Below are positions 128-37,783 of a stretch of DNA of 37,783 nucleotides, piece after piece. Each line of letters opens with the position of its first letter. The stretch's first letter is position 1. The translations under genes were made by a program, and so were the position numbers. A model generated the notes under the pieces. The model was not told where the DNA came from. It did not search any database and saw only the letters and a program-made list of their open reading frames with translations. Source of the stretch: a virus; the IMG/VR virus record IMGVR_UViG_3300042332_000335, positions 1 to 37,783 of that record, one strand, 5' to 3'.

Positions 128-1018
128 TCGGGTGTAACCGTTTTCGTACTGCTCATTAGCGTCACCCAATGTTCGGTTGAGAAAAAGAACCACATTTCCA
201 TAACTATAACACTTTATACGATACGTGACGCTGGAAGTTGTGTTTGGTGAATCAAGGAACGAGATTACTATGTTTGCCTGCGTGGAGTTTGTATCAGCAT
301 CAAACGGCATTACTTTTATTCCGTTTGTCCTTGTCTCAGGATTGATAGGAACACCGAGTTCAGTAACGGTTGATCCAACAACACGCTCAAGTATAAACGC
401 AGTAACCTCGTAGCATTCGCAACTGAAGTTGAACTGCACAAGAATCTTAGAAGCAGCCTCTTGAGGAGTTATGCTTGTCGTGAGAGCAGAAAGTATTACA
501 GCGTTTGCTCTTACGTTCGGAACATTGTACGTGGCCGTTCCTTCAAAGTTTGTAAAAGCAGTCCGCGGCCTCAATGACGTCAGTGAGCCTGCAGATAGCG
601 TCAGTCCAGTGCCGACTGTGATTTCCTCAATGTCTCCGGATGAAGCAGTGGTGCGACCGAGCAGCTTGTTGGTGTTGATCGCCTGAAACTTGGCAATGGT
701 CACCGCTCGCGCACCAATCTTGTTCTCAACAACAGCTCCGGTGCCGATATTGACCGTGCTGGCAGTGAACGTCAGGTCGGTTGAACTCAAAGCCACTGGG
801 CTCGCTGCAGCGCCGCTGCCATTGCCTACAAGCGTTCCTGATGCCTGAGAAACAAGCGACGTGAGCGGAACCGATCCTGCGCTGATCGACAGCGAACCGC
901 CATCGACCGTGCCCGTGACGTCGACGCTCGGCGTACCGAGCAGGTTGAGCGTGCTGGCATCCAGCGTAGTGGATGACGTGACGGTGGTTCCCGGTGTGAC
1001 TGTGACAAAGAGTGGCAT
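89..1018 (-). CDS. Tail fibre / receptor-binding protein (309 aa)
   Basis: This is a probable trimeric tail appendage protein. The N-terminal half is rich in Ser, Thr, Gly and Ala. Residues about 115-150 hold a LLGRTTASSGDIEEIT element that recurs in the large fibre at 27389-29689. The C-terminal ~130 residues form a beta-rich knob with SKILVQ, FLDSP, TYRIK and LNRTLGD elements, a layout common in fibres of environmental podoviruses. It starts with ATG 4 bases after the nozzle gene stop and ends overlapping the TTG start of the GNAT gene. Function is inferred from composition, repeat and position between gp12-like and gp13-like genes; the receptor is unknown. Confidence 0.7.
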   Translation of the reverse strand: MPLFVTVTPGTTVTSSTTLDASTLNLLGTPSVDVTGTVDGGSLSISAGSVPLTSLVSQASGTLVGNGSGAAASPVALSSTDLTFTASTVNIGTGAVVENKIGARAVTIAKFQAINTNKLLGRTTASSGDIEEITVGTGLTLSAGSLTSLRPRTAFTNFEGTATYNVPNVRANAVILSALTTSITPQEAASKILVQFNFSCECYEVTAFILERVVGSTVTELGVPINPETRTNGIKVMPFDADTNSTQANIVISFLDSPNTTSSVTYRIKCYSYGNVVLFLNRTLGDANEQYENGYTRATSQVILQEILV

Positions 1019-13005: not shown

Positions 13006-14712
13006 CTAGTATCCACCGCCGCCGCGGGAATCAAAGCCCCCCTTGCCCACGTAAGCAAGGCCGGAGACCAAGAGCATCCCCAAGCAATCAATCGGATCCT
13101 TGCTCGCCCCCTTCTGCCCGTCGCGTCCGGTGTGCTCGCTCAAAGCATACGTCAGGTTTGCGCAGTCCTTGGTGATGTACAGGCTCGGCTCGTTCAATGG
13201 CGTCAGTGGCTGCGTGGCATCGTAGGATAACAAGCTGTTGATCGCTGACGTGCGCTGGTCTACTGGCACGCCCGGGGCAGGTACGAAGGCCATGGGTTCA
13301 TCCAGCGGGTTATCCGATTCTGCCAGTAGGTCGATCAGGGTAGTCCCGCCTTGCTCCGATAGTGCCGGGCTACCGCCTGCCTTAGGATCGATCAAGCGCA
13401 TCACAGGCTCGCCGTAACCAAGCTCGGCCTCAATGGTCCTGAATAGGTTTCGGTACTCCGATATCGACCGGCCAGCATCCAGAGTCTGCGCAGGTCCAGC
13501 CTTTCCATCAGGCTTCTCACTAGGCAGCACCCACTCGCCGTAGTTTGAGAAGTCGGGGAACTCCCGCACCACAATGCGCTTCCCATCCTCGTAGGCCAGT
13601 AGCCATAAACAGAACCAGTTACGTGCGCCTGCAGGATCGCAGACCATGTACAGTGTACCCCCGGCAGGCACCTTGTCGCGCTCGATGCAGTGGATATCCG
13701 GCCTGAACCTAGCGAAGGCCTTGCCGATGTTGTCCGAGGCCCACCCGTAGGCCCGGGTCAGGATCTGGCCCATGGGCGATGCCACCAGCTTCGACTTCAT
13801 TTCATCGAAGGGGTTGTAGGGGTTGTCCTCGGAGAAGAAGAACACCGTCCGCCGGTTGGTCTGGGCCTGCGCCATTGTGCGAGCAGCCTTGCCCACGGGC
13901 CACGTAGGGAGCGCCTGCTTGCTCTTGAGCAACTCAGCTTCATCGAAGCGGGTAATAGCCGAGCCAGCGGTGAACTCCTTATACACCGAGGCCACGCCTT
14001 CAAGCGGTGTCTGCGTCACCAAGAGCTTGCCGCGGCGGGTAATCAGTCGATACCGGAGCGTCTCAACCCAGCTCTGTGGCACCAGCTCATCGCACCAGAT
14101 CAAGTCGGCCTCGCGGCCCTCAATGGTGTTCTCGGATTGCGTGTAGTTCAGGAAGTCGCAGCGGGAGCCATTAGGCAGAATGAATGAGCCATCTGTGAAA
14201 CCATTCTTTCTGCTGTAGTTCAAGTAGTGGATGCGGCCTTTCTTAGTGGCTCGTAGTGCTACAGGGAGATAGTTGTATATAGCTGGCTGTTGTACGGTTA
14301 CGCTAGTGGCATGGCTAGTGTGACAGCATAGTACACTAGCGTTCTCCTTTTCCAATAGCGTTTGCACAACACGGCGTGCGGCCCAGAGTGTTTTGCCTGC
14401 GCGGTTACCACCGGAGATAAGGAGTTCTTGGGTAGCGCCAAACTCGGTGTTGGCTACCTCCCAGTGGTCGGGGATGAAGCCGTAGGTGTACGGATCGGCT
14501 TTCTCAAGGAGTACAAGCTGGGTGCGCTTGAGCTTCAACTCCAGTGCCCGGGGGTGCTGTGCGTCGACCTTGGGTATGACGGGGTGCTGTGGCTGCTCGT
14601 TCCACCATGCGTCGTTGCAGGCCTCGGAGCAGAAACGCTTTTGCTTAGGGCCTTCGCGGGGTTTGAGGATGGTGAATAGCTTGGAGCAGGTGAGGCAGAT
14701 GGGGTTGGTCAT
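13006..14712 (-). CDS. terL: Terminase large subunit with N-terminal zinc-finger-like motif (568 aa)
   Basis: ATP-driven DNA packaging motor and nuclease. Walker A is GGNRAGKT (residues 101-108) and Walker B is ADLIWCDE (202-209). The C-terminal RNase H-fold nuclease shows acidic motifs in YMVCDPAG, MRLIDPKAGG and KDPIDCLGM. An unusual N-terminal extension has CLTC at 6-9 and CSEAC at 28-32, a likely zinc-binding knuckle. There is only a weak ribosome site before the ATG, and a 277-bp gap separates it from the small subunit gene. The portal follows directly. The family assignment is secure; the zinc role is inferred. Confidence 0.92.
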   Translation of the reverse strand: MTNPICLTCSKLFTILKPREGPKQKRFCSEACNDAWWNEQPQHPVIPKVDAQHPRALELKLKRTQLVLLEKADPYTYGFIPDHWEVANTEFGATQELLISGGNRAGKTLWAARRVVQTLLEKENASVLCCHTSHATSVTVQQPAIYNYLPVALRATKKGRIHYLNYSRKNGFTDGSFILPNGSRCDFLNYTQSENTIEGREADLIWCDELVPQSWVETLRYRLITRRGKLLVTQTPLEGVASVYKEFTAGSAITRFDEAELLKSKQALPTWPVGKAARTMAQAQTNRRTVFFFSEDNPYNPFDEMKSKLVASPMGQILTRAYGWASDNIGKAFARFRPDIHCIERDKVPAGGTLYMVCDPAGARNWFCLWLLAYEDGKRIVVREFPDFSNYGEWVLPSEKPDGKAGPAQTLDAGRSISEYRNLFRTIEAELGYGEPVMRLIDPKAGGSPALSEQGGTTLIDLLAESDNPLDEPMAFVPAPGVPVDQRTSAINSLLSYDATQPLTPLNEPSLYITKDCANLTYALSEHTGRDGQKGASKDPIDCLGMLLVSGLAYVGKGGFDSRGGGGY

Positions 14713-14989
14713 TTCTCAATATTTTTCGTTTCTGGAACCCGTCGACTTTTAGCGATTCCGCCAAAACCCCGACCCCCTCCCCCGGGGTGGCCCTTGTAAC
14801 GGGGTAGGACATTGGTACGGCGGAGGGGTGCTGACGTGCGTTTCGATCAATGTTTACGGGCCTTTGCTGCTGGTTTGCGTCACCAAGTGAATATAACTGC
14901 TATTGTAGGCATGAGTGCCCGAAACAGGCCTAAAAGCGTGGTTTTCAGTGGTGCTGCCGCGGTAGGGGTAGGACATTTGGGGCCACTAC
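14713..14989. repeat. Non-coding gap between terminase genes with a 13-bp direct repeat (possible packaging or regulatory site)
   Basis: No supported gene lies here. GGGGTAGGACATT occurs at 14801-14813 and again at 14965-14977 (minus strand AATGTCCTACCCC). An 11-base core of it recurs at 16649-16659 inside the HTH gene. A GGCA-TGAG-TGCC mini-dyad lies near 14908. The left part has C/G runs (CCCCCTCCCCCGGGG). A small-terminase recognition (pac) site, an operator or a translation-control element for terL are all possible. Confidence 0.5.
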
Positions 14990-15601
14990 CTAAACCAGAT
15001 CGGGTGTCTGTTCGTCGTTCACGGGGGTCACATCGCGCTCTTTCATGTCGCGCATGAGGTCTCTGTGGCTCACAGAGGCTGTCATAGCGAGGTGAATGCT
15101 GGTAGGCTGGCCTTTGATTACAGCCAGCTTATCCGTGAGCACGGCCACTGATACGGGCAGGGAGCGGTCATCAATGAAAGTCATCGACTCTTCAGCCAAA
15201 CGCTTGGTGCCTTTCCATATTGCTACTTCAATGAATCCAGTAACATCCTTACGCCACTCTTCCTCAGTCTCCGGATAATCACTCGGTACTTTGACTCCCC
15301 GTATGTATTTGAATGTAGTAGTAGGATTAAGACCTGTTGTAGCAGATATATCAGCAAGCGACTTGTTTTGAAATATGCCTTCCACTATCTGATCAGCTTT
15401 CTCCTGATCCATCTTAGAGTTCGGGTGTTGGTTCTCTGGTGGCTTGATGTACCCAACATCCTCTGCAGCCTTCTTGACCTTATCCTTGAACTCCTTAGAC
15501 AGCTTAGGGTCATCACGTAGCGCCCACGTTACGCGGTTACGATCTGTTCCTGCCTTAGCAGCAACGTCATTGAGTGATGCCCTTGTCTTCTTACCCGGCA
15601 T
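14990..15601 (-). CDS. Probable terminase small subunit with LacI-type HTH (203 aa)
   Basis: Residues about 8-50 (ASLNDVAAKAGTDRNRVTWA followed by LRDDPKLSKEF...AEDVGYI) match the LacI-family DNA-binding helix-turn-helix. A second HTH-like part follows at about 65-105 (QIVEGIFQNKSLADISATTG). The C-terminal half (VSVAVLTDKLAVIKGQPTS and a charged helical end) resembles the oligomerisation part of HTH-type small terminases. Position immediately upstream of terL supports DNA recognition for packaging. The alternative is a transcriptional regulator. Its start overlaps the glycosyltransferase stop by 11 bases. Confidence 0.65.
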   Translation of the reverse strand: MPGKKTRASLNDVAAKAGTDRNRVTWALRDDPKLSKEFKDKVKKAAEDVGYIKPPENQHPNSKMDQEKADQIVEGIFQNKSLADISATTGLNPTTTFKYIRGVKVPSDYPETEEEWRKDVTGFIEVAIWKGTKRLAEESMTFIDDRSLPVSVAVLTDKLAVIKGQPTSIHLAMTASVSHRDLMRDMKERDVTPVNDEQTPDLV

Positions 15602-16413: not shown

Positions 16414-16743
16414 TCAATCTTTGGTGCGTTGGTCGGTGAGAAACTGCTCGTGCCCCTTGCTGATAAGGTAGCAGATGGATCCGCGGGATACTCCGCAGGC
16501 CTCCGTGACTTCATCCAATGTCATGCCCTGCTCACGTAGGTCGTAGGCCATCCTGCAGAGCTGCGGAGTGTACTTCTGTTCGATGATGCGCTCTGTTTCC
16601 AATAGCATGGGGTCTAACGAACCATCCGGCAGGTACTTCTGGCCTACCGGGTAGGACATCCAGCCGTACTTGATAGCCTTCTTGATCAGTGCCGGGGCAT
16701 CGTTCAGCAGCTTGGCACGATCCAGATCGTACTTGGGTCTCAT
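16414..16743 (-). CDS. Small HTH DNA-binding protein (109 aa)
   Basis: The C-terminal part (TLDEVTEACGVSRGSICYLI) is a clear helix-turn-helix of the sigma-region-4/resolvase style, preceded by a helical segment (RIIEQKYTPQLCRMAYDLRE). The N-terminal half includes IKKAIKYGWMSYPVGQKYL. The start codon adjoins the helicase stop (TAAATG). It may be a transcription regulator or a small packaging or replication adaptor; the sequence does not decide. Within it, 16649-16659 repeats the core of the motif from the terminase gap. Confidence 0.65.
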   Translation of the reverse strand: MRPKYDLDRAKLLNDAPALIKKAIKYGWMSYPVGQKYLPDGSLDPMLLETERIIEQKYTPQLCRMAYDLREQGMTLDEVTEACGVSRGSICYLISKGHEQFLTDQRTKD

Positions 16744-19489: not shown

Positions 19490-20152
19490 TCAGTACGCCG
19501 GTATCAGGATATCCGCCACCTTCTGCGTCAGCTCGACGTCCCGCCGGCAATAGTCAAGTGCCGCTTGACGGTTGGTATTCCACAGCGTCGAAAAGTCCGC
19601 GCCGTTGCCTGCCTTCTCACCGAGGCCTAGGTGCCTGCTGATCGCTGCCAGACTGCCGTGGGCACGGTTGTCCCCGAGCTGCCACACCTCACGCAGGTCG
19701 ATCACAAGATCGTTCCAATAGCGCCCCTGACGCAGCCAGTAGGGCACCTGAATCCGATGCTTCCAACTGCGCTTTATCAGGAACGGCAGGTCAAAAGGTT
19801 TCACGTTGAACCCAATGAGCTTCGGGTTGCGCTCGTAGTATGTCAGGAGATTCCACCACTCCCGCAGCATAGCAGCCTCACCACCGGGCTCCGACGAGAA
19901 GACTCCGGCCTGCTGGTGTTCGATGCGGTATCCGATGCACAGCACCTGTCCGCTCAGTGCATCCAATGCTGCGCTCCGGATGTAGTCCGCGGTGTGCGAC
20001 TCCTCGGCACGCTGGATCTTCTCTGCGATCAGGTCGGGGTTCTTAGTGTTGCCCAGTTTGACCGCGGCTGGATCGAACGGCGGGATAACAAGCTCCGATA
20101 GCGGTAACGGGCCTGTCTCGATGTCGAAGTAGATGTTAGGGTTTGCTGGCAT
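19490..20152 (-). CDS. DEDDy-type 3'-5' exonuclease (220 aa)
   Basis: A stand-alone proofreading-type exonuclease of the DnaQ/PolB-exonuclease superfamily. Exo I is IYFDIETG (D10, E12), Exo II is LIGFNVKPFDLPFL, and Exo III is ALDYCRRDVELT, with Tyr four residues before the Asp, so the DEDDy subclass. There is no polymerase domain and no polymerase gene in the genome, so it may trim ends in recombination or repair, or work with the host polymerase. I chose ATG 20152, which overlaps the previous gene by 17 bases; the ATG at 20203 would add an unlikely 17-residue extension. Confidence 0.85.
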   Translation of the reverse strand: MPANPNIYFDIETGPLPLSELVIPPFDPAAVKLGNTKNPDLIAEKIQRAEESHTADYIRSAALDALSGQVLCIGYRIEHQQAGVFSSEPGGEAAMLREWWNLLTYYERNPKLIGFNVKPFDLPFLIKRSWKHRIQVPYWLRQGRYWNDLVIDLREVWQLGDNRAHGSLAAISRHLGLGEKAGNGADFSTLWNTNRQAALDYCRRDVELTQKVADILIPAY

Positions 20153-20441
20153 TGGGTTTGGGTCGGTTGAGTGCGTAATAGGCTGTATTGAGTCCGACCC
20201 CAAAGTGCTCCGCGATCTCGCGGTAGTTGTGCCACTTGTGGGTCTTCCTCCACTGCTGGATCTTGTCGATTGTCTCCTGCTTGATTGCGTACTTCCTGTC
20301 GGGATGCTGTTTCTTGATCTTACGAGGCTGATTGAGAGGCTTTGGTGGCCTTGGTGGCTCCGGAGCTGGTGCTGGCCTCACATAGCCTGCTGGAGGCGCG
20401 CAGAGCTGCGCTATGCGCTCCGCGCTGAGATTGAGTTTCAT
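20136..20441 (-). CDS. Small HTH protein (101 aa)
   Basis: The N-terminal half contains a proline-rich stretch (APAPEPPRPPKPLNQPRK), followed by a basic part (KKQHPDRKYAIKQETIDKIQ) and a C-terminal helix-turn-helix (HNYREIAEHFGVGLNTAYYA). It is one of several small HTH proteins here and is likely a DNA-binding regulator or replication accessory. No ribosome site is obvious. An 87-base gap to the next upstream gene shows only a short direct repeat (TCACCG) and no clear promoter. Confidence 0.65.
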   Translation of the reverse strand: MKLNLSAERIAQLCAPPAGYVRPAPAPEPPRPPKPLNQPRKIKKQHPDRKYAIKQETIDKIQQWRKTHKWHNYREIAEHFGVGLNTAYYALNRPKPNASKP

Positions 20442-20528: not shown

Positions 20529-20951
20529 TTACGTAGGCTTTCCGCAGTGAACACAGCAGACGTTGCGGCGGGGCCTACGATTAAGCGGCTCGACTTCAAG
20601 CCACTCGCAAATCTCGACGTAGGACTTACGTCCGAAGCTCCAAATGGCTCCCGGGTACAGGTGGCCGCTCTTGTAGAGGGCCAGCGCTTCCTCCTTGGAG
20701 TGGATGCACAGATCCTCAAGCACTCGGAAAGTGCGGTTGGTGAATGGGAAGCCCCACAGACGCAGGACCTCTTCCATCTCCTTGGCGCTGGCGATCACCT
20801 GATGGATCCGTTGGCGCGACAGGTTCAGCTTGTTGCCGATCTCCTGCAGGGTCATCCCATCGGAGCGCATCTGGACCACGCCGGGCACCAAGTGCTTGAG
20901 CTTGGCGTACTCCTTGCGCTTGGGCTTGATCTCAGAAAAAGACGTCGTCAT
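20529..20951 (-). CDS. Transcription-regulator-like protein: sigma-type HTH plus alpha-CTD-like domain (140 aa)
   Basis: Residues about 22-57 (LVPGVVQMRSDGMTLQEIGN then KLNLSRQRIHQVIASA) form a helix-turn-helix like sigma-70 region 4. Residues about 68-120 (TNRTFRVLEDLCIHSKEEAL... WSFGRKSYVEICEWL) follow the helix-hairpin-helix pattern of the RNA polymerase alpha-subunit C-terminal domain, including the FGRKS..EI signature. The C-terminus has Cys residues (CCVHCG). It may direct host RNA polymerase to phage promoters; this is inference. Its ATG overlaps the SSB gene end by 20 bases. Confidence 0.65.
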   Translation of the reverse strand: MTTSFSEIKPKRKEYAKLKHLVPGVVQMRSDGMTLQEIGNKLNLSRQRIHQVIASAKEMEEVLRLWGFPFTNRTFRVLEDLCIHSKEEALALYKSGHLYPGAIWSFGRKSYVEICEWLEVEPLNRRPRRNVCCVHCGKPT

Positions 20952-21675
20952 CGGCTGTGATCTCCTTGTTCGCTGCTTTGATTGCTTCGAGACGTGCGTT
21001 GATGGCTTGGATCAACTGCTTGTCCTGAGTGCTGGCGTTCTTGTCCGCCATGGCCTTCGGGATCCAGTGCTCGGCAAGCTGGCCAACCGAGATGTCGTTC
21101 AGGTCGCACAGCGGGACTCCGCGGAACTTACCCACGTGCACCTGAGTCTTCAGGATGTCGGTTGGGCGGTTGGTAGAACCATCGGGCCTGATGGTAACTA
21201 CCTTGTCATCCTCCCGGGGAGGCCTGTCCTGCAGGCGTACCCACTGGCCCGACGGCTTCAGCTCACCGCTCTTCAGCGGCATGATGAGCTTGATGTTGGC
21301 GTACACCTTGGTGCCGTCCATCGACTCCTCGTGAGCGATCACGATGCTGCAGGACTTGCCAATCAGGCTCTCTAGGTCGAGCGACTTGTTCTCTTGCTCG
21401 TTCAGCTTCCGCCCAAACCAGTCCTTGAGGAACTTGGTCAACGCTGCCTTCTCGTGCAATGAAGGCACCATGGGCTTGGTGAACACTACCCACGGCTGCA
21501 CCGGGTCGCGTGAGTCGTCCTGAAGATCAATCTCGAAAGCGAACTTGAACTTCTTCTTGGTGCCGTACTCGGTTTCGTACTCCTTGAGCGGAGTCACGTC
21601 CACACACACCGCCTTGCCCGTATACTCGGGGCACGGTGCGTACTCTTTCTTACCGCCGCTTGCGCTGATTATCAT
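20932..21675 (-). CDS. SSB-like single-strand DNA-binding protein with acidic C-terminal tip (247 aa)
   Basis: The N-terminal ~150 residues are an OB-fold-type domain of a phage family usually found beside replication genes: AVCVDVTPLKEYETEYGTKK, KFAFEID, PSLHEKAALTKFLKDWFG, SLIGKSCSIVIAHEE, YANIKLIMPL. A linker and a helical part follow, and the chain ends ADDDVFF, closely resembling the acidic, Phe-terminated tail by which bacterial SSBs recruit partners. A CAA-rich stretch (minus strand AACAACAACAAC) precedes the start, probably an unstructured leader. Likely coats single strands during replication and recombination. Confidence 0.75.
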   Translation of the reverse strand: MIISASGGKKEYAPCPEYTGKAVCVDVTPLKEYETEYGTKKKFKFAFEIDLQDDSRDPVQPWVVFTKPMVPSLHEKAALTKFLKDWFGRKLNEQENKSLDLESLIGKSCSIVIAHEESMDGTKVYANIKLIMPLKSGELKPSGQWVRLQDRPPREDDKVVTIRPDGSTNRPTDILKTQVHVGKFRGVPLCDLNDISVGQLAEHWIPKAMADKNASTQDKQLIQAINARLEAIKAANKEITADDDVFF

Positions 21676-27388: not shown

Positions 27389-29689
27389 TTACGAAAGGTT
27401 CACGGATTTCCAATTATATCCGTTGTGCACCCACAGAACGTTGGTGTTCGCAGCGTTGTTGGTCTGCAGGTACATCGGCACGTTGGTTGGTGGCGCACTG
27501 ACGTTAGTTGGCGCACCGCTTGGCGCTGATGATCCTGCTGGGATGTAAACAAACCCATAGGTCATGGAAGGGCTTCCAGCGGGGCCTTTGATGTCGGTAT
27601 CGACCTGATTCCAAGAGGAACCCTTTACCAGCTTTCCGGTGGTCCCATCGAATAGCGCGAAGTTGTTTGCAGTGGATGACGATGGGCCTGCCACATTACC
27701 CGCTGCGGCAATGCTGATTGTGCCGGAGCCGTTTGTGATCGTGATGTTGGTGCCAGCGGTTAGCGTGGCCTTGTTCAGCGTGCTGCCGGTCGTGTTGCCG
27801 ATCAGGAGCTGGCCGTTGGAGAAGCTGGTCTGCCCGGTTCCCCCGTTGTTCACGCCGAGCGTGCCAGTGATCCCGCTTGAAAGCGAGATCAGCGGAAGGT
27901 CGATGCCCTGAATCGTGGACATGACCACGTTGCTGCCGTCGCCGCGGAGGTACTGACCATTGGTTGCCGATCCTGCGAGATTGGTTATGGCTGCAGCAGC
28001 AGTGGTCGCTCCGGTTCCGCCATTGTCGATATCGAGCGTGCCTCCAAGCGTGATCGTTCCAGAACCCGTCACAGGGCCTCCGGAAGTGGTAAGGCCTGTC
28101 GTACCACCGGACACTCCCACGCTGGTCACAGTGCCGCTGTTACCAGTTGCGTTTAGTGTGCTGTCCGTCATCGACAAATTGGTGCCGAGCGTAATTTCTT
28201 GAACAGCAGCGCCTGTTGAATTGCTTCCCAAAAGTTTAGATCCACCGCTTACGGCTTGAATCTTACTGTAGGTGACCTTGTTGGGTCCGATGGTCGCGGC
28301 AAATGAACCTGTGCCAGAACCTGTCACATCCCCGGTGAGCGTGATCGTCTGGTCGCCTGTGTTGTTGCCGGAGGTAGTGCCCGAGATGTTCGATCCGGCA
28401 ATCGTGCCGGAAGCAGCCACCGATGTGGGCTCGATATTGCCAAGAGTAAGCGAGCCACTGGATACCGATATCCCAGCACCAAGCGTAATCTCATCGACAG
28501 CTCCAGCACTGTTTGCGACACGCCCAAGCAAACGATTTGATGCGCTGACAGTTAGTCCAGAAGCCGTGATGGCACCGCTTGCTGCAGCGCCGAGAGTGGT
28601 GCGCTGATTGGCAGCGCTTGTATCGTCCAGAATGGCCCTGCCAGCCGCGGTACAGGTGATTTCCTCTATCTGACCAGCGCCGGCAGACTGACGGCCTAGA
28701 ATGCGGTCTGTAGCGCTGACGTACTGCATCTTGTCGTAGGTGACAGCCTGCGGGGTAATTGTGGTGGTGATCCGGCCTTCGCCCTGCCCTGTGACATCAC
28801 CCGTCTCAAGAATGTAGTCGCTCGACTCGGTGATAACGAAGTCACCGTTCTCAGCCAGCAACCTATCGCCGCCAAGGATGATCACCTGATCGCCTGTATT
28901 GAATCCTGAGAGGTTCGATCCGGTGACCATAGCGCCTGCGCTGATGGCTCCCGATGCTGCCACGCTGGTGGGCGTAATGGCACCGAGAGACAGCGTGATG
29001 GCCGGCGTGGTTGTGGGATTGGCTACGCTGCCCGAAACGCCGTTTGCGGTGACAACCGATACGCTTGTAACCGTTCCGCTACCAGCCGGTCCCGGTGGGC
29101 CAGCAGGACCTGCAGGACCAGCGGGTCCTTGTGGACCCTGCACGCCGGCACCGCCCTGAGGCTTGGTCATCCCGGTGTCGAGCCGAGTGATCTCAAGTGT
29201 GGTGTAGATCTCGGGCTGTCCGATGTTCGATGCAATACCAAGGCCGTCTGCATGACCGCCGCGCTCAACGTAGTATTCCAGCCGGTAGACGGTGTCCTTG
29301 TGCGGCGTGATGCGCAGGTTCAAGGACACTTCCATGTCTACACTATTGTTTATGTAGAGCGATGGGCCGTACCCGATGACCACCGAGTTGGTCACGTCGT
29401 AGATCCGCAGCCTAGTTCCTTGGGTGTGGTGGAACGGTGCCAATACCTTCACCTGATAATTGCCAGCGGCCACCTTCCACTCATTGGACGCAAGATCAAT
29501 GATCAGGCTATTCGGATCGCTGCTGATGGTGTTGAGCGTTCGGGCTGTCCACACAGCAGCCACCGCTGTGCCGCCTGCGACGTTGTTGTTCTTCACGTCC
29601 TGCAGCACCGCGATCTTTAGCGTGAGGCTGTCGACGTCCTTACGCAGCTTGTTGATCAGGCTGGTGCTGGTTTGTGAATCGTAGCTCAT
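27389..29689 (-). CDS. Large tail fibre with collagen-like and beta repeats (766 aa)
   Basis: In the T7 gene 17 position. Residues 1-40 are helical (LINKLRKDVDSLTLKIAVLQ), suggesting a trimeric coiled-coil anchor. About 45-175 forms a beta domain (NEWKVAAGNYQVKVLAPFHH). A collagen-like Gly-x-Pro stretch (GPQGPAGPAGPAGPPGPAG) follows near 185-205. The long middle repeats elements such as LLGRVANSAGAVDEIT and SGNNTGDQTITLTGDVTGSG at least three times, shared with the fibre at 89-1018. The end (GSSAPSGAPTNVSAPPTNVP...WVHNGYNWKSV) is a probable tip. It most likely recognises the host surface. Confidence 0.85.
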   Translation of the reverse strand: MSYDSQTSTSLINKLRKDVDSLTLKIAVLQDVKNNNVAGGTAVAAVWTARTLNTISSDPNSLIIDLASNEWKVAAGNYQVKVLAPFHHTQGTRLRIYDVTNSVVIGYGPSLYINNSVDMEVSLNLRITPHKDTVYRLEYYVERGGHADGLGIASNIGQPEIYTTLEITRLDTGMTKPQGGAGVQGPQGPAGPAGPAGPPGPAGSGTVTSVSVVTANGVSGSVANPTTTPAITLSLGAITPTSVAASGAISAGAMVTGSNLSGFNTGDQVIILGGDRLLAENGDFVITESSDYILETGDVTGQGEGRITTTITPQAVTYDKMQYVSATDRILGRQSAGAGQIEEITCTAAGRAILDDTSAANQRTTLGAAASGAITASGLTVSASNRLLGRVANSAGAVDEITLGAGISVSSGSLTLGNIEPTSVAASGTIAGSNISGTTSGNNTGDQTITLTGDVTGSGTGSFAATIGPNKVTYSKIQAVSGGSKLLGSNSTGAAVQEITLGTNLSMTDSTLNATGNSGTVTSVGVSGGTTGLTTSGGPVTGSGTITLGGTLDIDNGGTGATTAAAAITNLAGSATNGQYLRGDGSNVVMSTIQGIDLPLISLSSGITGTLGVNNGGTGQTSFSNGQLLIGNTTGSTLNKATLTAGTNITITNGSGTISIAAAGNVAGPSSSTANNFALFDGTTGKLVKGSSWNQVDTDIKGPAGSPSMTYGFVYIPAGSSAPSGAPTNVSAPPTNVPMYLQTNNAANTNVLWVHNGYNWKSVNLS

Positions 29690-32600
29690 TTGGCTTTACG
29701 TCGAAGGATGCGTTGAGCCTCGTCAAGGCTGCTGGCGATGCCTATCAGGCTTCCTGCGGGGCCGTAGAGGCGAAGGGAGCCCTTGGCCTTGCCGGGGAGT
29801 GCACGGTAGCCACCGGTGAATGTGTAGGCACCGGGCATGGCGGAGTCGGGCTGGGGCATCATGTCCGCCGGCATATTGCGGATGGCGATTGCCGCAGCCA
29901 CGCGCCTAGGAGGAACGGCCCACAGGTTCTCCGGGTCGAACCGTTCGATCTCGGTAGCCTTCTTCAGTCGGACAGGATCCTCCATGCCGTCGTACAGCGC
30001 ACCGTAGAGCTTGTAGCCCTTCTCAAACAGGTCCATGGCATCGCGGTGGTCCTTGACGCTACGGCCTGTCGCCATGTCGCCGGCAGGCATATACCGGATA
30101 TCCTCCGATGTAGCCTTGAAGCGCTGCGAGAGCGGGATGACGTTGCCGGCGTCGTCGCGGGTAATGGGGTCGGCGGATTTGATTTGGGTTAAATCCGAAA
30201 CAACGTAGTTTTTGCGTGCAGGTAATGCAGAGATTCCTTCCGCTTTTTGACGAGGAGTCTGATTCAATGCCGGAGCGTTTCTCATCAACAATGTGTCTTT
30301 TGAGAGCAACCTGTCAGGATTGATCGCCACATCATTGAAGTCGCCTTCTTTGATTGTTCCTTTCAAATATACAGGCTCAACAGAACCTCCTTTTGCATAT
30401 CTGTTTGCCTCTTCAAGACTGTCAGTAAACCATTTCAATCCTGAAACATTTTGAATGTTTCGACCATCTTTGCTCCCACGATACACCGGCCCCACCGTGT
30501 ACCCCGCCGCCTTAGCAGCCTCATCGACCATCCGCTGCGCTGCCTTAGTGTCGCCCTGCTGCACCGCGGAGAGGTAGTCGGTGTCGGAGGGCATATATCT
30601 GACCTGCCCCATCGACTCTTGTTGGCCGGGTATCGACTTCTCGACAGGAAAGTCAGTCATCTGCTGACTCAGAATCTTATGCTTCAGCTCTGGGTAGGCC
30701 ACGTCCACCACTTGGTAGTGAGTCATCTTAGTGACGGGTTTTCCTTTGAGCACGTAGTCGTATGACAGGTGCGTCGGAACACCTGCCTGCTGCCCCGTCA
30801 ATATCGGGTCAGAATCTGAAATTGGATCAATACGAATGATACCTACAGCAGCACCAGTTGGTACATTCTTGAAGGCTGGCTCTTCGATTGAATCAACAAT
30901 CTTGATGGCATCAGGAAAACCAGCCTTGGACATCTTCTGCGAAAGCAGTGACTGATAGGCGATTTTCTCTCCTGCCTTGGTCGTTGTCTTAGACTTTTGG
31001 AAGTACGTTGAAGCACGCTTCTGCTGCGGCATCGAAACGATGTCATTGAACGCTTGGTCGAGCGTCTTCCATGTTTCAATGTGATCGGTGCGTAGCTTTG
31101 AGTCTGGATGCTTTGCGTACTTCTTTCTGACGGCATTCAGTTCACGCAAAGCCTTGGACTCCTTCATTGATCCATTGGCAACGCTCTCTTTCAAGTCGTT
31201 GAACCAGATGTGCGAGAACGTCTTATTTCCGATGACGTTTCCTTCCTGCATCAGCACCAGCTTGACGTATCCATTGTTAGCTGCCGCTCGACGCGCAACA
31301 CCGCGAGCAGTTCCGGTGCTGTTGAATGCCCAAACAACGCCATTTGCGAGGTTCTCCTTGATGGCCGGATAGAACATCCCGCCTTGCAAGTCGATGCCCT
31401 TGTATTTACCGACACGCATCCGATCAATGTGGATCGCTGCAATGGTTTTGGTGTCTGCAGCAATCTGCTTTTTGATTGCGTCGGTAACGCTTGGGAATGC
31501 GTCACGATTGATCTCAGGCATGAACCTGAGTTCAGGTGATTCATCCCATTTGATCGGTGTTCCCTGAAGCGGAAGAGATTCGACATCCGAGTCCGGTGCC
31601 GGAGTGCCCGGTTCAACCGTCTCGTCTGGAGTGCGAACTACATCCCCCGCTTGTCGAACCGCCCCGAGTTCTTGCCGGCCTTCTTCTCGGCCTTGCGTGC
31701 GACCGACAGCGCTATCGCCACGGCCTGCTTCTGCGGTTTGCCGGACTTCATCTCGCGCCGGATATTGCTGCTGACCGACTTCTGGCTGTAGCCTTGCTTG
31801 AGTGGCATCTGCTTTCCTTTCTGCTTGGGTTTGGGTGTCGTAGATCCCGATCAGCTTGCCGTCGGGACCGTAGAGCTTGTGCTTGGCTCCGCTGATGATG
31901 CGGTAGCCTTCATCGGAGTTGATGACCGACTTGTCGCCAATGGTTTCGGCAGGCATCCAGCGTTGCTTTGAGAGCTGGATGGCGTCCTCCGAGATACGGG
32001 CTCGGAAGTCCATCGGAGACATGGATCCGATGCGGTCTAGGCGGAGGTCGCGCACGAACTTGCGACCGCCCTTCTCCTGTGCGTTTACGAAGTCGCCGAG
32101 GAATCGGGCCTTGGCATCACCGAATATCTCGTAGGACCGACGGGCACCTTCCTTCTGGTCGAGGTTGGTGAAGTACTTCGCCAAGTCGGCCATGAAGCCG
32201 TCGGTGTTGTTCCAGAGGCCACCGATACTTCCGTCCTTGGTCAGTTCCTTGGTCAGAGCATTACGCACCTTGGTGATGTCGATCACCTTGACCAGCGGGT
32301 TGTCTGCCTTGGAGAGGTAGAAGGCATACGGCAGCACCTCGCGCTCGCTGACACGAATGCCGCTGTCGTACTTCGGAGAGTACTTCTTGGTGATCCGGTT
32401 GTACGCACGCTTGAGCGCTGCGCTATAGACCACGTGAATGCTATTGCCGGCATCCATGGCCGCATTGACTCCCCGGATCTTGTCCTTCATCCGGCTGCTG
32501 ATCGACTGGGACTGATCAATGGCAGACAACTGCTCGGGACTGAATCGTCCCATGAATGCACCATCGACCACACGGGCTCCCGGGATGTTCTCGGCAATGG

Positions 32601-34794
32601 AACGCAAGGAACTCATGTCCTTGTCGTCGCGTGCCCGAATCTCATCAGTAGACAGGTTTCTGATCGTGCCATCGGGCATCTGCTCGGCCACACCCATGTC
32701 TACCAGCTCCCGACCTGCAAGCGGGTTGGCAACGTCTTCCGGTTTCAGGACACGTCCGCCCTGTTCCGACTCCAGCATGATCTTCTCATCAAGCCGTTTC
32801 CGAGCGCGCAACAGGTCGCGCAGCATGGCGTTCACCTGAGGCGAGGCCTGCTTCAAATCAGGGAACAGCACCGAGTCGGTGGGCTTCACACCAAACGTGC
32901 GCTCAATCGACGCTGCAGCGTTTGCAATAGCCTTGCTGGCATTCTGCGTCAGAGCAGCGTCCAGAAGCTGTCTGCTAAGGCCGGTGAAGCCCTTCAGCAT
33001 TGCGTCCGGCTTCTGACCGGCAATCAACGCTGCGAAGTGTTCCGCGGCCAACTCAGAGGCGATGTAGTCCGCCTTCTTGTTGATGGTGTCGAACTGGGCC
33101 AGCTCATCGGCTCGCTGTTTGTTTCCAGCAGCCAGCTTGTCTCGGTACTCGTTGAACCGAGCCTCAATCTCGGCATCGTTGAATACGCCATCGGCCAGCT
33201 TGCGGATGACGTCTCCCTCCTGAATCCAACGGCCCACTAGAGCGTTCTTGATCTCGGTGGCACCACCGGAGAGCTGCTGGCTCTTCTCAAGCGCATGGAA
33301 CAGCTCGTGACCGAGAGTGTACAACGGGCTGTCGCCTTTGCCTTTCCCGAGTATGTCGGCATTGATGACGATGGTCGGGCGGTCGCCAATCTCGACCTGA
33401 ACGCCACGGGCTCGGCCCTTGTACTGATCAACAAAGTCAGCGTCCGAAAGGTACCGGATGTCGATGTCGCCAAACTGGCCTTTCACCAGATCACCGACGT
33501 CCATGAGCGCCGATGCGGTATCGACGCCGTGCGCATCTCGGACACGCTCAAACAGCGCCTTGGTAGTCGGGTCCTGCTGGGCATCAATGAAGCGCCCCAA
33601 GTCGCCAGCACGGGCTTCCTTGGCGGCAGCGCCGGTGAGCTTCTGGTACATCCGGCCACCGAGAGCACCGGCTGCACCCTGAACACCGCCAGAACCTAGG
33701 CCTGCAGCAGCCCCTTCTTCACCACCGGACAAATAGCCCAAGCCTGTACCAATGGCTGCGCCTTCAATACCTCCAGCGATACTCCTCAGTGAGGCATCCA
33801 AGGCAGCGTCACCGCCGTACTGCCCGACCACGCCGAGCATACGCTGGCGCAGGTTTGCGCCCGGGGCAGCACCGATGGCTTCCAGTGGCCCGATGCGCGA
33901 TGGCTGGGTCATCAGGTTCTCGCCAGCACGGGCCAGTGCCTCGCCGGCCTCGCGTGCGGTACGGATGCCTGCGGGAATGGCAGCGAAGGCAGCGGCCTCG
34001 GGAGCGATACCGAGAGCGCCGGCGATACCGGCAGTGGCCGCGGTGCTACGGAGCGCTTCAGGAGCCATTCCAAGCGCTTCCGCTGTCATACGCTCGGCAG
34101 CACCGGCAACGCGCTCCAGAGGCCTTGCAGCGCCGGCAATGGCGCGTCCTGCGAGTTGAGTGCCTTTACCGACTGCGCGGGTGGCGAGTTTGCCTGTCCC
34201 AAGGATTTCACCAACGCCGGGTACGAACAGCGTCGGGTCAAGAATCATTGAGACTCCCTGCACGTACTCCGGATTGGTGTACTCAGGTGGAACAACGAGA
34301 CCTTCTTCACCTCGTTCCAAACGGGCGGTGGTGTTTGCGAAGTCTCGGGCCTCAAGGAACTGCTGGTAGCGGGACTCAGGCGTGCCGGTGCCTGCAACCA
34401 GATCCTTGAACTTAAAGAGTGCTGACGATGGATCCTGAGACTGAGCAGCCAGTCCGTAAAGCTGGCGAGTTCCTTGAGCAAATCCCTCTAGGTAGTTCAG
34501 TGGGTTTGCTGCAGCGCCTTGAGCGCCTTGAGAAACAGCGCCACCGATCATTCCAATGGCAGCATCAGCGGCCTGCGCGGCGGTGTTGATCCAGTCGGTC
34601 TGCTTGTTCTTAGAGTACTCCTCGTACTTCAAGTAGTCTGCCTGCGTTGGCTTGAAAGCAGGATCCTGCATCGCCAGCGAGATGTCCTCGCCGGTTGCCG
34701 GGAACTGGTCGGCAAGAATGCGTTGCGCTTCGTTTTTGCTGACCGAGTCAGGAAACTCGACAACCTGAGCACCGACCTGCACCTGATATGGCAT
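29686..34794 (-). CDS. Giant polyvalent internal virion protein: metallopeptidase and ART-like modules (1702 aa)
   Basis: It occupies the T7 gp16 position and is probably ejected with DNA. Residues about 130-400 are Gly/Ala-rich, hydrophobic-helical. H496-E497-x-x-H500 in [10 protein letters not shown] is a zincin-type HExxH metallopeptidase motif. Residues about 1400-1530 match the ADP-ribosyltransferase-like module of polyvalent proteins ([50 protein letters not shown]). R-[WFY]-M-P occurs at 945, 1090, 1399 and 1567, at module borders. Copies of an LYGPxGxLIGI module lie near 945-1000 and 1639-1702. Starts at ATG 34794, 4 bases after the upstream stop. Confidence 0.8.
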
Positions 34795-37347: not shown

Positions 37348-37748
37348 AGGTGCTTGGATGCCACTCTATAGATCGGCATTGATCCTTTCGGATAGGTGGT
37401 CAGTTTTCCGTTGCGATACCCGATGGCCGGGAGAATTGCGCTTTCCGGCCTGTCGTGAAAGAACTTAGCCGCCACCGCCATTGCGAATACGGCGCAGTCG
37501 GCAGCGAACTGGTGCCAGTACCAGTGGTCGCCATTGGGGTCGCTGGCCTGCCACGTCCATGGCTTAGGCTCCGGACCAATCTGACGCCAGCCTACAAGCA
37601 CGGCAACCACCTGCTCGTCCTGAGTGGCGATCTTGAGCGTGCCCTGCTGCGCATGAAACAGCACGTAGTCCTCCAGCGCCTCCCGGGTCCAGCCTTGGAA
37701 GCTGTCGGGGAGCTTGCGGAGGAGGTAGTCTGTGATCTGGGGGATCAA
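37344..37748 (-). CDS. GNAT-fold protein, T7 gp13-like internal virion protein (134 aa)
   Basis: An acetyltransferase-type fold is suggested by the beta-strand with VVAVLVGWR, the aromatic segment KPWTWQASDPNGDHWYWHQF, AVFAMAVAAKFF and the final strand with LTTYPKG. T7 gp13 has a related GNAT-like fold and sits at the same place after gene 12. The start is TTG, in a TTGA overlap with the fibre stop. Part of the gene is repeated at the window's left end. The enzyme activity may be lost; no canonical acetyl-CoA motif (R/QxxGxG/A) is visible. Confidence 0.65.
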   Translation of the reverse strand: MIPQITDYLLRKLPDSFQGWTREALEDYVLFHAQQGTLKIATQDEQVVAVLVGWRQIGPEPKPWTWQASDPNGDHWYWHQFAADCAVFAMAVAAKFFHDRPESAILPAIGYRNGKLTTYPKGSMPIYRVASKHL

Positions 37749-37783
37749 ACGAGGATCTCTTGGAGGATTACCTGAGAGGTGGC
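37657..37783. repeat. Terminal direct repeat, right copy
   Basis: This is identical to bases 1-127. See the left-copy entry; it shows the contig closes into a circle of about 37,656 bp. Confidence 0.95.

Follow-up and report, generated by a model that had tools for sequence, protein, structure and literature searches.

The window analysed here, the whole 37,783-nucleotide stretch of viral DNA, begins and ends with a direct terminal repeat of 127 bp (positions 1-127 and 37657-37783) and so represents a complete phage genome, with 37,656 unique bases; it encodes a podovirus-type major head protein, a terminase, a DnaB-like helicase and a Holliday-junction resolvase. On its minus strand, at 20529-20951, an open reading frame starting with ATG encodes a protein of 140 amino acids in which a helix-turn-helix (HTH) resembling region 4 of sigma factors (sigma4) is followed by a helix-hairpin-helix (HhH) resembling the C-terminal domain of the RNA polymerase alpha subunit (alphaCTD). 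The plus strand is also open at the same coordinates, without encoding a sigma4/alphaCTD-like protein. When the minus-strand frame is compared with those of ten relatives, the differences fall mainly at third codon positions (against L003, 17, 10 and 46 changes at codon positions 1, 2 and 3), and the same neighbours accompany it in the 36 loci compared; 20529-20951 is therefore a gene, and the protein it encodes is real, conserved and under purifying selection. Just upstream, overlapping it by 20 nt in the window, is a phage replication initiation gene of the NGO0469 family (20932-21675, minus strand; NCBIfam NF046043, 91 bits against a cut-off of 75), which precedes the 140-aa gene in 36 of 36 compared loci, though in L013, L040 and L055 the gap could hold a further gene. 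A gene for a 3'-5' exonuclease or DNA polymerase exonuclease-like protein, recognised by PHROG matches and synteny (19490-20203, minus strand), comes after it wherever these loci extend that far; the DnaB helicase lies further downstream and the Holliday-junction resolvase upstream. Two more small HTH-looking proteins without a clear family are encoded nearby (16414-16743 and 20136-20441, both on the minus strand).

The HTH occupies residues 19-66 (20754-20897, minus strand), and its likeness to sigma4, pointed out in a preliminary description of this DNA, is upheld. Sigma70_r4 (PF04545) is the best Pfam hit of the 140-aa protein (E 6e-6, 26.1 bits against a cut-off of 24.1) and is matched by 27 of 27 family members, and an hhalign comparison of the HTH half with a profile of sigma4 sequences drawn from bacterial genomes gives 97.1% (E 8e-11). 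Matches in NCBIfam are mostly to sigma factors, partial and confined to their region-4 end. In structure comparison the predicted fold of residues 19-67 is close to sigma4 domains (about 1.4-2.4 A) and to other HTH proteins as well; it is the sequence that singles out sigma4, and the fold alone would not suffice. The T-L-x-E-I-G ... R-Q-R-I-x-Q signature of the HTH is shared with sigma-70 region 4 (PF04545) and with YlxM-type small regulators, and small sigma4-like HTH proteins are common. The recognition helix begins R46-Q47-R48-x-x-Q51, where position 46 is R or K and Q47, R48 and Q51 are invariant across the family. Compared with sigma-70 region 4, the loop before the HTH is five residues shorter, and the positions of E585 and R588 are taken in the window protein by Q47 and H50, which makes the canonical TTGACA a doubtful target. 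A counterpart of helix 5 is absent, the recognition helix (46-66) leading directly into the HhH domain. As to membership among the sigma factors, region 2 (-10 element, core binding) was not found in the 140-aa protein, which differs from them in having neither sigma2 nor sigma3.

The second domain spans residues 66-121 (20589-20756, minus strand), with predicted HhH helices at 72-80, 86-95 and 108-118; confidence is 86-94 within this domain in the second structure model, whose overall confidence is 77.5, and a first, shallower model gave matches mainly to the HTH. Residues 68-120, for which the preliminary description had anticipated this architecture, are thus predicted to form an HhH rather than an unrelated fold. 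In profile-profile comparison the HhH half reaches 93.6% (E 2e-7) against the RpoA-CTD of 17 bacteria and a larger family profile reaches 93.9%, the controls staying at or below 3%: 200 column shuffles of the HhH profile do not exceed 2.9%, the reversed profile reaches 0.6% and the HTH half 1.0%. RuvA and LigA/UvrC-type HhH profiles score no more than 3% against the phage domain; RpoA-CTD itself is recognisably related to both (up to 82%). A generic HhH of the RuvA or LigA/UvrC kind is ruled out by this comparison as the source of the domain. At the level of single sequences, 8 of 18 domain sequences match PF03118 weakly and below the cut-off (best E 0.011; L055 has 13.2 bits against 23.8), and the window protein itself has no match. 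RpoA (2max) ranks first when the domain profile is run against PDB sequences (E 0.35) and RpoA is again the best match in 15 bacterial genomes (E 0.13), each result being weak singly. Structure comparison of residues 64-134 of the second model matched the alphaCTDs of several bacteria; the PDB matches listed for the HhH stretch are alphaCTDs, among them 7vpd_S (Z 5.3, 2.9 A, 55 residues), 2max, 5tw1_T, 9dvt_A, 8igr_G (1.8 A, 50 residues) and 3n97_C. Their Z values are modest (4.2-5.3), which is in keeping with a stretch of only about 55 residues. Because several tests agree, and the singly weak matches are consistent together, we assign the domain to this type: residues 66-121 specifically resemble the alphaCTD of RNA polymerase, as had been proposed.

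The resemblance extends to individual residues, for which equivalences were taken from an alignment with E. coli RpoA. DNA-contact residues of alphaCTD other than R265 include N268, G296, K298, S299 and E302. Its minor-groove DNA binding involves R265 and N294 (PMC5511352). In the phage family, R73 (20733-20735, minus strand) corresponds to the minor-groove arginine R265, and G107-x-x-S110-Y-x-E113 (20613-20633, minus strand) supplies the equivalents of G296, S299 and E302; none of the four varies among the 85 sequences, and on this basis minor-groove DNA binding is probably retained. Two other equivalents vary between clades, that of K298 at position 109 (K in 59, R in 3, V in 21 and I in 2 of 85) and that of N268 (N in 43, R in 42 of 85). 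The FGRKSxxEI signature first noticed in the window thus holds for the family in part: F-G-x-x-S-Y-x-E-I is invariant in the 85 sequences, the lysine is present in 59, and the arginine gives way to W in most (R in 19 of 85, W in 62). In common with alphaCTD (PF03118) the phage domain has its fold, by prediction and profile, and these invariant positions; it differs by a three-residue insert, in the (S/T)-G-H-L-x-P region, before helix 4, and, unlike the alpha subunit, the 140-aa protein has no N-terminal dimerisation and assembly domain. Detachment from RpoA also occurs among bacterial alphaCTD-like domains. L369 carries a 113-aa stand-alone alphaCTD protein with a cysteine-rich N terminus (366-707, minus strand) and L370 one of 101 aa directly behind rpoA (388-693); the former resembles the phage protein in having a cysteine-rich stretch, and both differ from it in lacking a sigma4-like HTH.

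At the positions where polymerase contacts would be expected, the picture is different. D259 and E261 of alphaCTD contact R603 of sigma70 (PMC5511352), and in the phage family these sigma-contacting acids are replaced by G67 and P69, both invariant. The beta-flap is held by sigma helices in and near H1, H2 and H5 (PMC2988021), the last of which has no counterpart here. Judged from the sequence, then, the DNA-reading features are for the most part kept and the polymerase-contacting features are not. The two domains join at L65-W66-G67, and when the HTH alignment is extended without gaps, sigma70 R603 falls on L65 and alphaCTD D259 on G67, two residues that contact each other when sigma4 and alphaCTD are bound next to one another at a -35/UP promoter (PMC5511352). 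Since the halves are joined at mutually touching residues, both could occupy neighbouring DNA sites, and a fusion point where sigma4 and alphaCTD meet could let both bind adjacent DNA; equally, any minimal fusion of sigma4 followed by alphaCTD would join near L65-G67.

Relatives of the protein encoded on viral contigs numbered 28, 107 and 240 in three scans with overlapping sets, and 161 viral loci that were read yielded 84 distinct relatives. Three queries against 50,697 records of annotated phages and a pattern search of bacterial species genomes gave no relative, and a full-length profile gave none in a sample of 743 bacterial genomes (299, 198 and 246, from the phyla of G006, G022 and G003), in which that profile has no positive control. 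A viral-protein structure library contained no match with E < 0.001 and, among the matches listed, none named as a sigma4-alphaCTD fusion; a literature search likewise returned no single-chain fusion of the two. Within the limits of the libraries searched, the combination of a sigma4-like and an alphaCTD-like domain in one chain appears to be new. The family also has conserved features outside the DNA-contact set, among them the family-specific (S/T)-G-H-L-x-P insert and a C-terminal knuckle, C133-x-H135-C136 (20544-20555, minus strand), which is invariant in 84 of the 84 sequences that reach it and probably binds zinc. C115 and H97 are also invariant and are perhaps further zinc ligands; matches of family members to Zn_ribbon_3 are weak (best E 0.13).

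The two parts with which RNA polymerase grips a promoter at its upstream end are thus copied and joined in one small freshwater-phage protein, which probably binds promoter-like DNA. The preliminary description had gone further, noting that the genome has no RNA polymerase and suggesting that the protein could redirect that of the host. Family searches indeed recognised no RNA polymerase in the complete genome; a 1702-aa protein (29686-34794, minus strand) has no PHROG or Pfam match, so that the result is to be read as none found, not as none present. A search of the window with PF00940 gave no match, and the control sequences gave none either. The idea of redirection itself fares less well. 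Most DNA-contact positions are kept, polymerase contacts are missing or altered, and we therefore favour, with moderate confidence, a phage-borne DNA-binding regulator of promoter-type sites over a protein that binds the polymerase. In such a mechanism the sigma4-type HTH would read a -35-like sequence from its major groove, the alphaCTD-type HhH would use the R73/E113 pair to grip the minor groove of A/T-rich, UP-like DNA next to it, and the protein would occupy promoter-type DNA, be it phage early or host promoters; it might then compete with or reposition the host holoenzyme instead of joining the enzyme. The DNA binding, the composite target and the competitive mode are all things that we infer. 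Rfam, consulted for RNA families that might lead to targets, gave no match. Several observations weigh against a regulator: no binding site for the 140-aa protein was found, the 14-30 kb stretch shows no excess of promoters (5 observed against 7.6 expected), the K298 and N268 equivalents vary, E585 and R588 are substituted by Q47 and H50, and the gene sits in a replication block, adjoining the NGO0469-type initiation gene.

This last point would be natural for a replication or recombination accessory that acts alongside the NGO0469-type initiation protein by binding the phage origin or intermediates of replication, both polymerase-derived folds then serving as DNA-binding modules only. The constant site between the NGO0469-family and exonuclease genes, with DnaB downstream and the resolvase upstream, fits such a role, which we regard as possible though not probable: both modules resemble promoter-recognition domains specifically, the RuvA and LigA/UvrC profiles do not rise above 3%, and early phage operons often combine regulators with replication genes. 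Likeness in sequence and structure to both polymerase parts, in a genome with no recognised phage polymerase, is what a substitute for sigma4, alphaCTD or both would display, entering or contacting the host RNA polymerase and steering it to phage promoters. That the protein acts in this way is unlikely, given that it lacks helix 5, by which the far C-terminal end of sigma touches the beta-flap (PMC2988021), that invariant G67 and P69 at D259/E261 remove the known sigma contact, and that no alpha N-terminal domain or sigma2/3 is there to tether it. Finally, the insert and the invariant C115, C133, H135 and C136, lying as they do outside the DNA-contact set, might belong to a zinc-dependent adaptor whose alphaCTD-like fold makes protein contacts, for instance with host activators whose usual docking site is alphaCTD; with the positions of R265, G296, S299 and E302 all within the invariant core, we consider this very improbable.

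If the protein is the DNA-binding regulator that we favour, the end-to-start fusion of sigma4 to alphaCTD might amount to a polymerase-free 'promoter grip' on composite -35/UP sites, silencing strong host promoters or gating those of the phage, a proposal that we put forward tentatively. In T4, through Alt/ModA and AsiA/MotA, R265 is ADP-ribosylated, which silences the host alphaCTD, and sigma4 is remodelled (PMC2988021). The same two promoter contacts are targeted there, and the likeness is one of strategy: T4 modifies the host's parts, whereas this phage encodes its own versions, and its own sigma4-alphaCTD on the same DNA would be another route to a similar end. Phages are known to alter host sigma4 and alphaCTD, but a single chain with both was not found in the papers and annotated phage records searched. 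Were composite -35/UP DNA to be bound, the protein would offer a minimal, polymerase-free model of how the two modules read DNA jointly, and a further means by which phages stop or re-time host transcription; were it instead a replication factor, it would be a case of the DNA-reading modules of polymerase being reused outside transcription.

A separate feature of the genome is a non-coding element at 14713-14989 (minus strand), which separates TerL (13006-14712) from a TerS-like gene (14990-15601) and whose conservation in relatives is very strong. It contains AATGTCCTACCCC twice, flanking a core with an invariant ACAATAGCAGTTATATTCACTT, followed by an invariant GGGGGAGGGGGTC; the element shows no covariation, and it is possibly a packaging site, an origin or a late control region. 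Its core is exact in 21 loci, where it occurs together with the 140-aa protein. As a required partner or target of the protein the element is ruled out, L045, L058 and L080 encoding the protein without it. In place of the element, a TATGATAAAATG..ATTATCAG stretch lies upstream of the terminase in these three loci; L045 and L080 also carry a GGTTCGATTC stretch that resembles the T-arm of a tRNA, but no tRNA was found.
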